A stretch of DNA of 60,842 bases, taken from NCBI RefSeq assembly GCF_011320095.1, contig NZ_JAANOY010000014.1, positions 1 to 60,842 on the forward strand, read 5' to 3'. This document shows positions 20,331 to 48,796 of the stretch, piece after piece. Numbering within the stretch: position 1 is the first letter of the stretch; every line of letters starts with the position of its first letter. The notes beneath the pieces are model-generated. The model was not told where the DNA came from, ran no database searches, and saw only the letters and a program-made list of their open reading frames with translations. Made by a program: the position numbers and the translations under genes. The DNA comes from Cognatiluteimonas telluris. GTDB lineage: Bacteria; Pseudomonadota; Gammaproteobacteria; Xanthomonadales; Xanthomonadaceae.

Positions 20331-21383
<1,053 letters not shown>

Positions 21384-24667: not shown

Positions 24668-24875
24668 TCGCGAAGAGCCTTTCGACGGGCATCCAGCCGC
24701 CATGGGCCAGATCGTCGGGATGGCCGTCGCGGCAGCGCAGGCGCAGGCCCGGGGTCATGGATCGGCGCGGATGGATGATCGGTCGGCCGGGGTAATCCGC
24801 CGGCCGGGCCCCGGGTTGGCCGCGGATTGAGAGCGCCGGTGCGACACCAACGTGGCGCATGAATACGAGGCCCAT

Positions 24876-24998
24876 AAAAAAGCCCCGCAAGCCAGGGGGG
24901 GGCTTGCGGGGCCGGGGACCGGCACCTGGGGAGGGGTAGCCGGTCCGGATCACTCCAGGGGAGGGGAGAGATCTGCGACAGACCTTGCATCTGTCGCG
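24876..24998 (-). ncRNA. sX13: probable sX13-like small RNA downstream of polA
   Basis: About 120 nt read leftward from just behind polA, with four stem-loops. SL1 is 24975-24997 (8 bp). SL2 is 24948-24973 (GAUC/GAUC plus CUCC/GGAG around a loop CCUCCCCU). SL3 is 24916-24946 (8 bp around a 15-nt loop with CCCCUCCCC). The terminator is 24882-24912 (12 perfect bp, loop of six C and U), ending in six U. The T-tract exists only on this strand. C-rich loops, ~115-nt length and polA neighbourhood are recalled features of sX13, an Hfq-independent virulence and growth regulator found in Xanthomonadaceae; Spot 42 and ErsA also sit beside polA. No database check was possible. A weak -10 (TATAGC, about 25005-25010) precedes it. 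Confidence 0.75.
24882..24912 (-). terminator. intrinsic terminator of the sX13-like RNA
   Basis: Twelve perfectly paired bases (24882-24893 with 24901-24912) around a seven-base loop are followed on the minus strand by six T (24881-24876). This is a textbook intrinsic terminator for leftward transcription, and could also end polA read-through. It is the strongest hairpin in the window. Confidence 0.9.
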
Positions 24999-25100
24999 GG
25001 CTATATGACCAAAGGGAGCATTGATGGTTCGTGAAGGACGTCGTTAAAAATCGGTGCGGTTCAGGGGCGATTCATTGGATTTTTCAATGGCGGAAAACAC

Positions 25101-27881
25101 TTAATGGGCCTCGTCCCAGTCGGCCCCGACGCCCACGTCGACCACCAGCGGCACCCGCAGTTCGGCGGCGCCGGTCATGCGCTCCACCACCGCCGCGCGC
25201 AGGGTGTCGACGAAGCCTTCCTCGACCTCGAACACCAGTTCGTCGTGCACCTGCAGCACCATCATCGCGCGTTGTGCGTGCGGCTCCAGCCAGCCGTGCA
25301 ACGCGATCATCGCGCGCTTGATGATATCGGCGGCCGTGCCCTGCATCGGCGCATTGATCGCGGCGCGCTCGGCGCCGGCGCGCAGGCCGGCATTGCGGGC
25401 GGCGATGTTCTCCAGGTACAGGCGGCGGCCGAACACGGTTTCGACATAGCCGCGCTCGCGCGCCTCGGCGCGGGTGCGGTCCATGAACTCGCGCACGCCC
25501 GGGTAGCGGGAGAAATACAGCCCGATGTAGTCCTGCGCCTCGCCGCGGGCGATGCCCAGCTGCTTGGCCAGGCCGAAGGCGCTCATGCCGTACATCAGCC
25601 CGAAGTTGATCGCCTTGGCCGCGCGCCGCTCGTTGCCGCTGACGTCGTCCAGCGCCTTGCCGAAGACTTCCGCCGCGGTGGCGCGGTGGATGTCGACCCC
25701 GGACGCGAACGCGCGCAGCAGCGCCGGGTCCTGCGACAGGTGGGCCATGATCCGCAGCTCGATCTGCGAATAGTCCGCGGCCAGGATCCGGCGCCCGGGC
25801 GGCGCGACGAAAGCCTTGCGGATGCGGCGGCCGTCGTCAGTGCGGATCGGGATGTTCTGCAGGTTGGGATCGCTGGAGGCCAGCCGCCCGGTGGCGGCGC
25901 CGGCCTGGTGGAAGCTGGTATGCACGCGGCCGTCGTCGCGGTTGACCATCTCCGGCAGCTTGTCGGTGTAGGTGCTGCGCAGCTTCGCGAGGCCGCGGTA
26001 GTCCAGGATCACCCGCGGCAACTCGTGCTGGTCGGCGATCGCTTCCAGCGCTTCCTCGTTGGCCGAGGGCTGGCCGGTCGGCGTCTTCACCAGCGCCGGC
26101 AACTTGAGTTCCTCGAACAACAGCGCGCACACCTGCTTGGGCGAGTCGAGGTTGAACGTGCGCCCGGCGAGCTCGGTGGCCTGCTGCTGCAGCACGAGCA
26201 TGCGCCGGCCGAGGTCGGCCGACTGCCGGCGCAGCTCGTCCATGTCGATCATCACGCCGTTGGCCTCGATGCGTTCGAGCACCGGCACCAGCGGGATCTC
26301 GATCTCGCGGTAGACGCGCTCCAGCGCCGGCTCGGCGGAGAGTTTTGGCCGCAGCACGCGGTGCAGGCGCAGGGTGATGTCGGCGTCCTCGGCGGCGTAG
26401 CGCGTCGCGTCGTCCAACGCCACGTGCGCGAACGGGATCTGCTTGGCGCCCTTGCCGGCGACATCGGTGTACTTGATGGTGTCGTAGCCCAGGTAACGCT
26501 TGGCCAGCGAGTCCATGTCGTGGTGGGTGGCGCCGGCGTTGAAGACGAAGCTTTCCATCATCGTGTCGTCGGCGTAGCCACGCACCTCCACGCCGTGGCA
26601 GCGCAGCACGTGCAGGTCGTACTTGCCGTGCTGGCCGATCTTGCGCTTGCCGGGGTCGGCGAACAGCGGCCGCAGCGCATCCAGCACCCCGTCCTGCGAC
26701 AGTTGCGCCGGCACGCCGGGATAGTCGTGCGCCAGCGGGATGTAGGCCGCCTTGCCGGCCTCGACCGCCAGGCTCAGCCCCACCAGCCGCGCGCACAGCG
26801 CGTCGAGCGAATCGGTTTCGGTGTCGAAGGCAAATTCGTCCGCCGCCTGCAGCCGCACCACCCAGGCGTCGAGCTGCTCGCGCGTGAGCACCGTTTCGTA
26901 CTCGCCCGCGGCCGACAGCGCCGGATCGATGCCGTCCACCGGCCTGGCCGCCGCTCGCGCATAGCCGGCTTCGGTGCCGCGCACGCTCACGGTCTCGCTG
27001 CGCGCGGGCGGAGCCGCCGTTCCGCCGTCGAGTTCACGCAACGCCGCGTTGAAGCCGTAGCGGGTGTACAGCGGGCGCAGCGCATCGACATGGCGCTCGC
27101 GCAGCTTCAACGCACTGGCGGGAAGTTCGAGGGCGACATCGGTCTTGATCGTCACCAGCGTGCGGTTGAGCGGCAGCCGCTCGACCGCCGCGCGCAGGTT
27201 CTCGCCGATCTTGCCGCCGATGCCGGCGGCGTTGGCGATCACGCCTTCCAGCGAGTCGTATTGCGCCAGCCACTTGGCCGCCGTCTTGGGACCACATTTG
27301 TCCACGCCGATGACGTTGTCGATGGCATCGCCCATCAGCGCCAGCATGTCGACGATCCGCGCCGCCGGTACCCCGAACTTGGCCATCACGGCGTCGTCGG
27401 TATCCAGCACGCTGCCGCTCATGGTGTTGACCAGGCGGATGCTACCGCCGCCCTCGAAGCGGCCGACCAGCTGGGCGAAATCCTTGTCGCTGGTGGAGAT
27501 CGTGACCTGGCTGCCCTCACGCGCGGCCTCCAGTGCCAACGTGCCGATGACGTCGTCGGCCTCGACGCCTTCGACGCGCAGGATCGGGAAGCCCAGCGCC
27601 TCGACGATCTCGCACATCGGCTGCAGCTGCGCGCGCAGCTCGTCCGGCATCGGTGCGCGGTTGGCCTTGTACTGGTCGTACAGGTCGTCGCGGAAGGTGC
27701 GGCCGGGGGCGTCGATCACGAAGGCCGCGCAGTCGGGTTTTTCGTTCAGGTGCGCGCGCAGCATGTTGACCACGCCGAACAGCGCGCCGGTCGGTTCACC
27801 GGCGGCATTGGTCAGCGGCGGCAGCGCATGGAACGCCCGATACAGGTAGGAGGAACCGTCGATCAGGACCAGTCTGTGCAT
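25101..27881 (-). CDS. polA: DNA polymerase I
   Basis: 926 residues, full length. The 5'-nuclease domain starts MHRLVLIDGSSYLYRAFHALPPL; the 3'-5' exonuclease domain holds the DTETDSLDAL active-site strand and the YAAEDAD block, so proofreading looks intact; the polymerase domain carries LAADYSQIELRIMAHLSQD (motif A), RRAAKAINFGLMYG (motif B) and QVHDELVFEVEE (motif C). Expected in Okazaki-fragment processing and repair. Divergent from the DUF2782 gene across ~170 bp; the sX13-like RNA lies 103 bp downstream in the same direction. Confidence 0.97.
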   Translation of the reverse strand: MHRLVLIDGSSYLYRAFHALPPLTNAAGEPTGALFGVVNMLRAHLNEKPDCAAFVIDAPGRTFRDDLYDQYKANRAPMPDELRAQLQPMCEIVEALGFPILRVEGVEADDVIGTLALEAAREGSQVTISTSDKDFAQLVGRFEGGGSIRLVNTMSGSVLDTDDAVMAKFGVPAARIVDMLALMGDAIDNVIGVDKCGPKTAAKWLAQYDSLEGVIANAAGIGGKIGENLRAAVERLPLNRTLVTIKTDVALELPASALKLRERHVDALRPLYTRYGFNAALRELDGGTAAPPARSETVSVRGTEAGYARAAARPVDGIDPALSAAGEYETVLTREQLDAWVVRLQAADEFAFDTETDSLDALCARLVGLSLAVEAGKAAYIPLAHDYPGVPAQLSQDGVLDALRPLFADPGKRKIGQHGKYDLHVLRCHGVEVRGYADDTMMESFVFNAGATHHDMDSLAKRYLGYDTIKYTDVAGKGAKQIPFAHVALDDATRYAAEDADITLRLHRVLRPKLSAEPALERVYREIEIPLVPVLERIEANGVMIDMDELRRQSADLGRRMLVLQQQATELAGRTFNLDSPKQVCALLFEELKLPALVKTPTGQPSANEEALEAIADQHELPRVILDYRGLAKLRSTYTDKLPEMVNRDDGRVHTSFHQAGAATGRLASSDPNLQNIPIRTDDGRRIRKAFVAPPGRRILAADYSQIELRIMAHLSQDPALLRAFASGVDIHRATAAEVFGKALDDVSGNERRAAKAINFGLMYGMSAFGLAKQLGIARGEAQDYIGLYFSRYPGVREFMDRTRAEARERGYVETVFGRRLYLENIAARNAGLRAGAERAAINAPMQGTAADIIKRAMIALHGWLEPHAQRAMMVLQVHDELVFEVEEGFVDTLRAAVVERMTGAAELRVPLVVDVGVGADWDEAH

Positions 27882-40494: not shown

Positions 40495-40639
40495 TGATCC
40501 GCGCCCGATACGGCACGGGCTGAACGCGGTGCGCTCGGCGAAGGTGCGGCGTGGGCGGCTTCGCCAGCGGATTGCACGGACAGATGCAGCCGCTGCCGTG
40601 ATGCGGTACGGTCGGCGCATTCTCGGGGGGGACTGAACC

Positions 40640-41581
40640 ATGCGCATCGGACTGGTGGTCGACTCGGCCTGCGACCTGCCGGCGGACTTCCTTGCCGCCA
40701 ACCACGTCACCATCCTGCCGATCACGGTGCGGATCGGCGACGCGGTGCTGGCCGACCATCGCAACGAACAGGCGACGCTGGAGTTCCTCCACGCGCAGAT
40801 CGCCGAAGGCGGCGCCGAAGCGCAGACGATGCCGTTCACCGTCGAGCAGATCCGCGACCTGTTCCTGCAGAAGCTGGTGATCGATTACGACTACGTGTTC
40901 TGCATGACGATCACCCGCAGCCGCAGCCCGATCTACGACAACGCCACCCAGGCCAGCTTCGCCATCCTCAACGAATACCGCCCGGTGCGGTCGGCGGCCG
41001 GCAACGAGACGCCGTTCGCGCTGCGGGTGATCGACAGCCAGAATCTGTTCGCCGCCCAGGGCATCCTGCCGGTGGAAGCCGCGCGCCTGCGCGAGGCCGG
41101 TGAAGGCCCGCCGAAGATACGCGCGCGGCTGGAGCACCTGGCCGTGCATACCCATGGCTACATGGTCCCGCGCGACCTGTACTACCTGCGCGCACGCGCC
41201 CGCAGCAAGGGCGACCGCAGCGTCGGCCTGGTCAGCGCCGCGCTCGGCACCGCGCTGGACATCAAGCCGATCCTGCATGCCAACCGCGGCGAGACCGGGC
41301 CGGTGGGCAAGGTCAAGGGATTCGACGCCGCCGCGCAGAAGGTGCTGGGATTTGCCGCGCAACGGGTCAAGGCCGGGTTGCTGACGCCGACGATGTGCCT
41401 GAGCTACGGCGGCGAGCTGGACGAGCTGCGCGCGCTGCCGGGCTACACGCAACTGCGCGACACCTGCCGCACGCACAACATCGACGTGTACGAGAGCGTC
41501 ATGAGCCTGACCGGCATGGTCAACGTCGGCAAGGGCGCGCTGGTGGTGGGCTTCGCGGCCGAGCCGCACAAGTTCGAATGA
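40640..41581 (+). CDS. DegV family fatty-acid-binding protein
   Basis: 313 residues of the DegV (FakB) family, which binds a fatty acid and presents it to a kinase in Firmicutes; partner in Gram-negatives unknown. Starts MRIGLVVDSACDLPADFL (family VTDSACDLP), then DYVFCMTITRSRSPIYDNA for the Thr-Ser bearing ligand loop, VIDSQNLFAAQG, and ALGTALDIKPIL. The G-rich stretch GGGGGG (40625-40631) is a strong but unusual ribosome-binding site for the ATG at 40640. Single gene, no FakA-like neighbour. Confidence 0.9.
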   Translation: MRIGLVVDSACDLPADFLAANHVTILPITVRIGDAVLADHRNEQATLEFLHAQIAEGGAEAQTMPFTVEQIRDLFLQKLVIDYDYVFCMTITRSRSPIYDNATQASFAILNEYRPVRSAAGNETPFALRVIDSQNLFAAQGILPVEAARLREAGEGPPKIRARLEHLAVHTHGYMVPRDLYYLRARARSKGDRSVGLVSAALGTALDIKPILHANRGETGPVGKVKGFDAAAQKVLGFAAQRVKAGLLTPTMCLSYGGELDELRALPGYTQLRDTCRTHNIDVYESVMSLTGMVNVGKGALVVGFAAEPHKFE

Positions 41582-48181: not shown

Positions 48182-48796
48182 CTACAGCTGCAACCAGCGC
48201 CCGACCACGGCGCGCGCTTCGTCGACGCCCTGCTTGGACTCGCCCGAGAACGTCTGCACGCTGACGGTGTCGCCAAACGCCGACGACAGCTCCTTGCGCA
48301 CCGCCAGCAGCGCATTGCCCTGCGCGCCGCGACCGAGCTTGTCGGCCTTGGTCAGCAGCGCATGCGCCGGTAGTCCGCGCTGCACGGCATAGCCGAGCAT
48401 CTGGCGGTCGTAGTCCTTCAGTGGGTGGCGGATGTCCATCACCACCACCAGTCCGCGCAGCGCTTCGCGGCTGCCGAAGTAGCCGTCGAGGAAGGCCTGC
48501 CAGTGCGCCTGCAAATCCTGCGGCACCTTGGCATAGCCGTAACCGGGCAGGTCGACCAGGAAGCGGTCGGTGGTGGGTGGGATGTCGAAGTACACCAGCT
48601 GCTGCGTACGGCCCGGCGTCTTGGACACGCGCGCGAGCGCGTTCTGCTGGCACAGCGCATTGAGCGCGCTCGACTTGCCGGCATTGGAACGCCCGGCGAA
48701 GGCGACTTCGTAACCGCCATCGGGCGGCAGCTGGCGCCAGGTGTGCGCGGCCAGCAGGTACTGGGCGCGGGCGAGCGGGTTGGGGACGGTGGGCAT
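48182..48796 (-). CDS. engB: ribosome biogenesis GTPase EngB (YihA/YsxC)
   Basis: Small GTPase needed for 50S assembly. 204 residues. P-loop GRSNAGKS (35-42), GKTPGRTQQLVYFD around the switch, DLPGYGYAKV as G3, and the TKADKL NKxD-type box. The frame is open far upstream (to 51805) but only because the DNA is GC-rich; the family start MPTVPNPLARAQ is at 48796. In several gammaproteobacteria engB is next to polA and a Spot-42-like RNA; here it is 20 kb from polA. Confidence 0.95.
   Translation of the reverse strand: MPTVPNPLARAQYLLAAHTWRQLPPDGGYEVAFAGRSNAGKSSALNALCQQNALARVSKTPGRTQQLVYFDIPPTTDRFLVDLPGYGYAKVPQDLQAHWQAFLDGYFGSREALRGLVVVMDIRHPLKDYDRQMLGYAVQRGLPAHALLTKADKLGRGAQGNALLAVRKELSSAFGDTVSVQTFSGESKQGVDEARAVVGRWLQL

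Follow-up and report, generated by a model that had tools for sequence, protein, structure and literature searches.

The sX13 small RNA gene beside polA in Cognatiluteimonas telluris: a conserved 5' hairpin and possible relatives at other polA loci

What is encoded in the short segment that follows polA in Cognatiluteimonas telluris? From the letters alone, the initial annotation had read about 120 nt here as an sX13-like small RNA with four stem-loops, had pointed to ErsA and Spot 42 as RNAs in a similar place, and had proposed degV as a target. We analysed the locus within the window (the whole stretch of 60,842 nucleotides) and asked whether it is a regulatory RNA gene or the tail of polA, where its transcript would begin, and how far its family extends.

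The sX13 gene and its place behind polA

A scan of the entire 60,842-base window with Rfam release 15 gave RF02232 (sX13) as the sole family above cut-off, with a match on the minus strand at 24986-24876 that covered positions 1-115 of the 115 in the model (90.4 bits versus a cut-off of 50, E 1e-15). What is encoded here is sX13, a small regulatory RNA, in a new copy of a known family: an ordinary orthologue, and the single copy in this genome, which by its nearest PolA relatives belongs to the Luteimonas/Lysobacter part of the Xanthomonadaceae. This covariance search supports both the reading of the initial annotation and the family name that it gave.

The minus strand of 24997-24876 folded into the four stem-loops that had been described (MFE -74.2 kcal/mol, z -8.5; 0/200 dinucleotide shuffles as low), and a longer stretch around the gene gave a z of -7.5. 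SL1 (24975-24997, minus strand) is a 5' hairpin of 9 bp with the loop GCAAG, visible in the fold and in compensatory changes. SL2 (24948-24973; folds and model alignment) and SL3 (24916-24946; folds, with all four modelled loop-closing pairs changed on both sides), both on the minus strand, each have a C-rich loop within CCCCUCCCC. The C-rich runs claimed for these loops are therefore there, partly within the upper stem: in the predicted fold CCUCCCCU and CCUCCCCA are unpaired, and the first two C of CCCCUCCCC sit in the helix. SL4 (24876-24913, minus strand) is an intrinsic terminator with a 13-bp stem (24913-24881), the loop CCCCCCU, which contains the six C noted before, and six T at 24881-24876; as had been stated, the T run is on the minus strand only, and so were all sites in a terminator scan of the region. 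The predicted folds contain three stem-loops with apical C-rich loops, as in the sX13 family.

The upstream neighbour is polA, encoding DNA polymerase I (25101-27881, minus strand; PF00476, 518 bits). It is read in the same direction, as annotated, and its stop lies 114 nt from the Rfam 5' end of sX13. Two genes that adjoin the sRNA in other lineages are scattered in the window, neither of them beside sX13: hemB (20349-21383, plus strand) is about 3.5 kb away, and the yihA/engB match (48191-48760, minus strand) about 23 kb.

This closeness to polA and the strong terminator at the end of the segment would also suit a mere polA 3' UTR with no regulatory RNA, which we consider extremely improbable. 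Over 38 polA-flanking relatives the helices covary, as the initial annotation had expected of a genuine RNA (0/500 shuffles reached the score on any of five measures), the loops are conserved, and the Xanthomonas homologue has been studied as an sRNA that acts in trans. The RNA and its promoter-like stretch also occur away from polA: in one genome of the genus (G002) 24 kb separate polA from the main copy downstream of it, and second copies are present in G002 and G006. On account of these copies the 3' UTR reading was rejected in favour of a separate RNA gene.

All nine genomes of the genus had a copy above the RF02232 cut-off. Across the order, RF02232 was matched at E 0.001 in 238/398 genomes, with 143 above cut-off; many genomes of a second family (f12), by inference Rhodanobacteraceae, are included. 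Among 80 named polA loci, chosen as PolA relatives irrespective of the RNA, a profile search found sX13 just downstream of polA in 80/80 (the 5'-end anchor was unusable in two). Conversely, 76 of 81 loci chosen for carrying the RNA had a PolA match; the five others were L004, L010 and L011 from the genus, L078, where the RNA is near a contig end, and L081. The last, from an f12 genome, is a copy about 23 kb from polA (G039:C1:549841-549950). In 2013, sX13 was reported from no family other than the Xanthomonadaceae, in every case downstream of polA (PMC3771888). No plasmid relatives were found among 72,556 records, and one control genome, Thermus composti, gave one weak RF02232 match below cut-off.

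The 5' hairpin, the promoter-like stretch and the transcript start

Published sX13 has 115 nt and a 5' region described as unstructured; its stems 1 and 2 are backed by probing of an in-vitro transcript (PMC3771888). The Rfam model of this form places the 5' end at 24986 on the minus strand (cmscan alignment), inside the SL1 loop between GC and AAG, and the SL1 5' arm (24997-24987) lies outside both the published RNA and the model. SL1 pairs were counted in 69 distinct Xanthomonadaceae 25-mers from 146 rows, some of which share genomes; two extra (second) copies and 11 f12 rows were set aside. The loop was GCAA(C/G/U) in 69/69, and pairs -9/10 to -4/5 were formed in 67-69 of the 69, with G-C, A-U and G-U exchanges. 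G-U pairs were tolerated in the arms: -3/4 was U-G in 47/69, and G-U also occurred at -9/10, -6/7 and -2/3. Pairing fell outward, to 64/69 at -10/11, 42 at -11/12 and 22 at -12/13. In the 11 f12 rows (10 distinct) the stem was shifted by one base, around CGCAACG.

RNAalifold on the 38 sequences predicted SL1 unprompted, and six of its eight modelled pairs showed compensatory changes in that alignment. There were 41 compensatory cells versus 11.1 in shuffles (0/500 as high), and sliding one arm against the other abolished the signal. Weaker measures separated less: the number of pairs changed on both sides was reached by 5/500 shuffles and that of further pair types by 162/500. These results indicate that a conserved 5' hairpin is probably cut short in the published and Rfam form of sX13. 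Because the published 5' end falls within the loop of a longer covarying hairpin, the primary start is probably 8-12 nt upstream of it, at the SL1 base (24998-24994), and the loss of pairing outward from -9 agrees with a start near 24997-24994. A start at the SL1 base would give a predicted primary transcript of about 122 nt with four stem-loops (24876-24997, minus strand).

A sigma-70 scan of 24700-25200 found no promoter, and another motif was therefore sought. Promoters of the RpoE/AlgU type have the form GAACTT-N16/17-TCNNA. A sigma-E-like motif, GAACCA-N16-TCATA, lies at 25004-25030 on the minus strand (-35-like element 25030-25025, -10-like element 25008-25004), with a predicted start at 24998-24994. 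Its -35-like element is overlapped by a conserved CTTCACGAAC block (25027-25036, minus strand) that emerged from column conservation in 62 distinct Xanthomonadaceae upstream sequences, the consensus of which was CTTCACGAaCcaTcaATG-N7-TGgTnnTATA. By chance alone the window would contain 10.6 such motifs, and it contains 7; what gives this one weight is its position: GAAC-N18/19-TCNN(A/T) stood upstream of 24/30 class-level copies versus 16/906 control windows from the same loci, and the motif was found at 13/18 class-level copies in non-training genomes.

Two other accounts of the 5' end have to be weighed. The 115-nt 5' end may be the true start and SL1 a DNA-level repeat; more precisely, the inverted repeat 24997-24975 could be a protein-binding DNA operator over the start region, with the RNA starting at 24986 as in Xanthomonas. 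Operators are commonly placed just behind the -10 box, which is where the SL1 5' arm stands relative to the -10-like element, and the published 115 nt with an unstructured 5' region (PMC3771888) suit this account as well. It is disfavoured by the many G-U pairs in the arms (U-G at -3/4 in most of the distinct sequences), as expected of an RNA helix, and by the 17 nt between the -10-like element and 24986, too far for a usual start. A further point against it discriminates poorly: behind the promoter motif the stem was found in 33/36 class-level copies versus 22.2 expected from shuffles. Taken together, we judge an operator unlikely. The second account agrees with a start at the SL1 base and adds that the longer RNA is then cut in the SL1 loop, between GC and AA, which would make the published form a processed product. 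The position of the 115-nt 5' end within the conserved GCAA loop and a conserved promoter-like stretch that fits an upstream start speak for such cleavage; against it, the word 'processed' is absent from the main text of the sX13 paper (PMC3771888). We give it somewhat less than an even chance. In Xanthomonas, sX13 shortened by its 14 terminal 5' nt retained complementation in planta (PMC3771888), so SL1 is unneeded for that phenotype.

The promoter pattern was present in only 60/111 distinct Xanthomonadaceae and 4/12 f12 upstream sequences; the Xanthomonas copies and some of those from Stenotrophomonas, Pseudoxanthomonas and Luteimonas are free of it. The Xanthomonas-like loci L012-L026 have GATCC...TTATAT in place of GAACC...TCATA, which may reflect a change of sigma factor in the very lineage where sX13 was studied. 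The window genome encodes RpoE (TIGR02939, 341.5 bits), and two motif matches precede the matched start of rpoE: GAACTT-N16-TCCCA at 104 nt and a second one at 394 nt. From the motif we infer that an RpoE-type sigma factor may activate sX13 in the window lineage. Given that the motif is conserved at class level and missing in Xanthomonas, stress control is plausible in this lineage and doubtful in Xanthomonas.

The second, diverged copies in the genus, away from polA, are L010 (G002:C15:149920-150029) and L011 (G006:C106:300-409). Their loops are altered (e.g. TTCCCC) and a GAACC...TCATA or TCCTA motif is kept; they are possible sibling sRNAs with different targets.

Candidate targets of the C-rich loops

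In Xanthomonas, sX13 works without needing Hfq: its C-rich CCCC loops target GGGG (4G) motifs close to start codons, it represses both hfq and pilH, and the 4G motif of hfq lies nine nt downstream of AUG (PMC3771888). In the window genome, the ribosome-binding region of hfq contains GGGG, and a second GGGG stands at reading-frame position 9-12. Eight hfq copies were found in the nine genus genomes (G006 had no match in this search), with at least four G upstream in 8/8 and a run behind AUG in 7/8. The run behind AUG is a Lys-Gly codon pair, and selection for sX13 need not be invoked for it. When the three sX13 loops were paired in silico with the genome's own hfq leader, 10, 17 and 38 of 500 shuffles were as low.

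The proposal that degV is a target fared less well. Its reading frame (40640-41581, plus strand; PF02645, 192 bits) is preceded by a G-rich leader (40625-40639, plus strand), and the seven G that had been pointed out are present at 40625-40631, 8 nt before ATG. Six of the eight degV copies found in the genus have a run of at least four G within 30 nt of the start. Seven-G runs had three matches in the window, two of which are the C-run of the sRNA itself read on the complementary strand, and are rarer here than in shuffles (mean 11.3). Predicted pairing of the loops with the degV leader was not clearly better than chance (55-90 of 500 shuffled leaders were as low). With such shuffle counts and unremarkable pairing the G-run alone is no evidence, and degV was set aside as a weak candidate. 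Since loop pairing beats most shuffles for the hfq leader, hfq is the better-supported candidate of the two and the best seen in this genome.

Taken as a whole, the explanation that we favour would run as follows. sX13 would be transcribed autonomously, from a promoter of its own and in the same direction as polA, with a start probably at the SL1 base (24998-24994) and an end at the terminator with the C loop. The three C-rich loops that it exposes would pair with runs of at least four G at or near ribosome-binding sites and lower the translation of the target mRNAs, hfq being the best candidate among them. We hold this explanation to be highly probable; loop/G-motif pairing, independence of Hfq and repression of hfq would here be as in the published Xanthomonas experiments, from which they are taken by analogy.

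Probable relatives at polA loci of other lineages

sX13, ErsA and anti-hemB are three Rfam families without a shared clan. Covariance model R1, built from 38 order-level sequences with the 5' hairpin included, gave 24997-24876 a score of 127.2 bits, this sequence being part of its training set. In a blind run on 369 genomes of the class, R1 had matches in 20, of which 15 lie outside the order. polA was upstream on the same strand in 12 of the 15 loci, at 64-222 nt in ten, at 713 nt in L168, where tandem copies lie between, and at about 1.3 kb in L169. An Rfam scan of the 15 loci and one f12 locus returned sX13 matches that were all below cut-off, a weak ErsA match at L168, and an anti-hemB match of 57.9 bits, above cut-off, at L178. 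L168 holds four tandem sRNA copies behind polA (G571:C33, 13150-13905), at least two with GAAC...TCTGA; G678, of the same genus, had five matches.

A wider model, R2, was made from 29 sequences spanning the order and the class groups, without the 5' hairpin (covariation 0/500 shuffles); L175 was left out of the training as a likely false match. MAFFT and RNAalifold gave the terminator only on this wide set, and the structure was therefore written by hand from the visible helices and checked by counts. R2 had a match in 206/369 genomes of the class. polA was then searched in the best-scoring 80 R2 genomes outside the training set, some of which share a genus with a training genome; G031 and G021, from the window's family, were left out. 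A polA match was obtained in 77/80, with an R2 match 34-513 nt downstream on the same strand in 44/77. Nine others were within 5 kb, three of them inverted beside polA, and 24 were elsewhere, most on another contig. By our own estimate, adjacency to polA would arise by chance at about one in ten thousand per match. In L205, L222 and G641:C15:12290-12407 the sRNA points against polA, at a distance of 123-205 nt; in L205 and L222 it sits between polA and yihA.

At 30 class-level loci (12 in training), polA and/or yihA adjoins the RNA in 28. A phylum search with R2 gave 23 more loci (L248-L270), all outside the order, with polA upstream on the same strand in eight, all eight with GAAC...TCAGA, and hemB beside seven. 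In L251 polA is 913 nt away in opposite sense, and neither polA nor hemB adjoins L248, L250 and L254. Four of these loci are outside the class (L259, L262, L267, L269); polA and the promoter motif were both missing next to all four, and we therefore do not extend the family to other classes. The neighbour and 5'-hairpin check covered 45 loci, the 30 class-level ones and 15 of L248-L270; L248, L250, L251, L254, L259, L262, L267 and L269 were dropped.

Among the named families, sX13 of Xanthomonas shares with the window copy the full-length match, the C-rich loops, the intrinsic terminator and the same-strand location downstream of polA; the 5' hairpin is also found in Xanthomonas DNA, unlike the published model with its unstructured 5' region, and the promoter stretch reads GATCCA...TTATAT there versus GAACCA-N16-TCATA here. 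ErsA of Pseudomonas (RF01719, Pseudomon-1) occupies the slot polA - sRNA - yihA and has a C-rich terminator loop and a GAACTT/GAACTA...TCATA/TCAGA motif; it is described as driven by sigma-22 and differs in its length of 132 nt (PMC5819304) and its other loops. Its locus L188 (RF01719, 121 bits; promoter GAACTT-N17-TCATA) lies outside the R2 training set and was found by R2 with 34.3 bits (E 2.3e-10 in 22.9 kb), whereas R1 had no match there. R2 also found eight further loci of the same family (f171), with polA 119-147 nt upstream and GAAC...TCAGA in all eight; the two that were scanned scored 127 and 134 bits with RF01719. The recovery of ErsA is partly transitive, as R1 loci and loci picked up by weak RF01719 matches are among the sequences on which R2 was trained. 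In the window itself RF01719 had no match at cut-off, nor any in the window genome at E 0.001.

For anti-hemB of Burkholderia (RF02837, cut-off 49.5), the R1 locus L178 is beside polA, and the R2 loci L202, L249, L250, L252-L254, L256-L258 and L261 scored 51.7-71.4 bits, all above cut-off; in the window there was no match at cut-off. In two papers anti-hemB is named in tables only. At L249, L252, L253, L256-L258 and L261 the anti-hemB-type sRNA (52.9-71.4 bits) has hemB upstream instead of polA, and five of these seven are also beside yihA, which points to a rearranged locus in that lineage.

Of the hint at ErsA and Spot 42, the first part held: loci that Rfam assigns to ErsA were recovered by a model grown from sX13 and blind hits. 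The second did not. Spot 42 (spf, RF00021) shares the place between polA and yihA in E. coli and the orientation, but its locus L201 was unmatched by R1 and R2 up to E 10, while RF00021 scores spf at 122.8 bits and stayed below cut-off in the window; Spot 42 is an Hfq-dependent regulator of carbon metabolism (PMC3771888). A polA locus and C-rich loops are also reported for alpha-r7 of alphaproteobacteria (PMC3771888), and alpha-r14 gave one weak match, at L168 (38 bits, below its cut-off of 58.8). The comparison shows no relation to either, and the R2 loci examined outside the class were without polA and motif.

The sequence comparisons make a strong case, short of proof, for placing sX13, ErsA and anti-hemB as branches in a single sRNA family linked to polA and yihA. 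We think it fairly probable that all three descend from one sRNA gene that lay between polA and yihA/engB early in the Gammaproteobacteria (Burkholderiales-like lineages included), with an RpoE-type promoter and a 5' hairpin, that Xanthomonas swapped the promoter, and that Spot 42 is a replacement or an unrecognisable descendant. In the titles and abstract starts of the open-licence literature, none among the matches listed joins the three, and no paper was found that names ErsA together with sX13.

To what is known of sX13 the analysis adds a 5' hairpin that had been overlooked, a sigma-E-like promoter motif in the window lineage and the case for one family. The comparison also amends the picture of sX13 itself, whose accepted 5' end probably falls short of the full hairpin. 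Do polA loci of other bacteria also give rise to sRNAs with the same mode of action? The sX13 paper raised this question (PMC3771888), and the wider family bears on it. Should the sigma-E-like promoter prove functional, a C-rich sRNA would be under the control of envelope stress across a large part of the Gammaproteobacteria, this RNA may repress hfq and other G-rich messages, and knowledge gained on ErsA could be applied to sX13 and vice versa.
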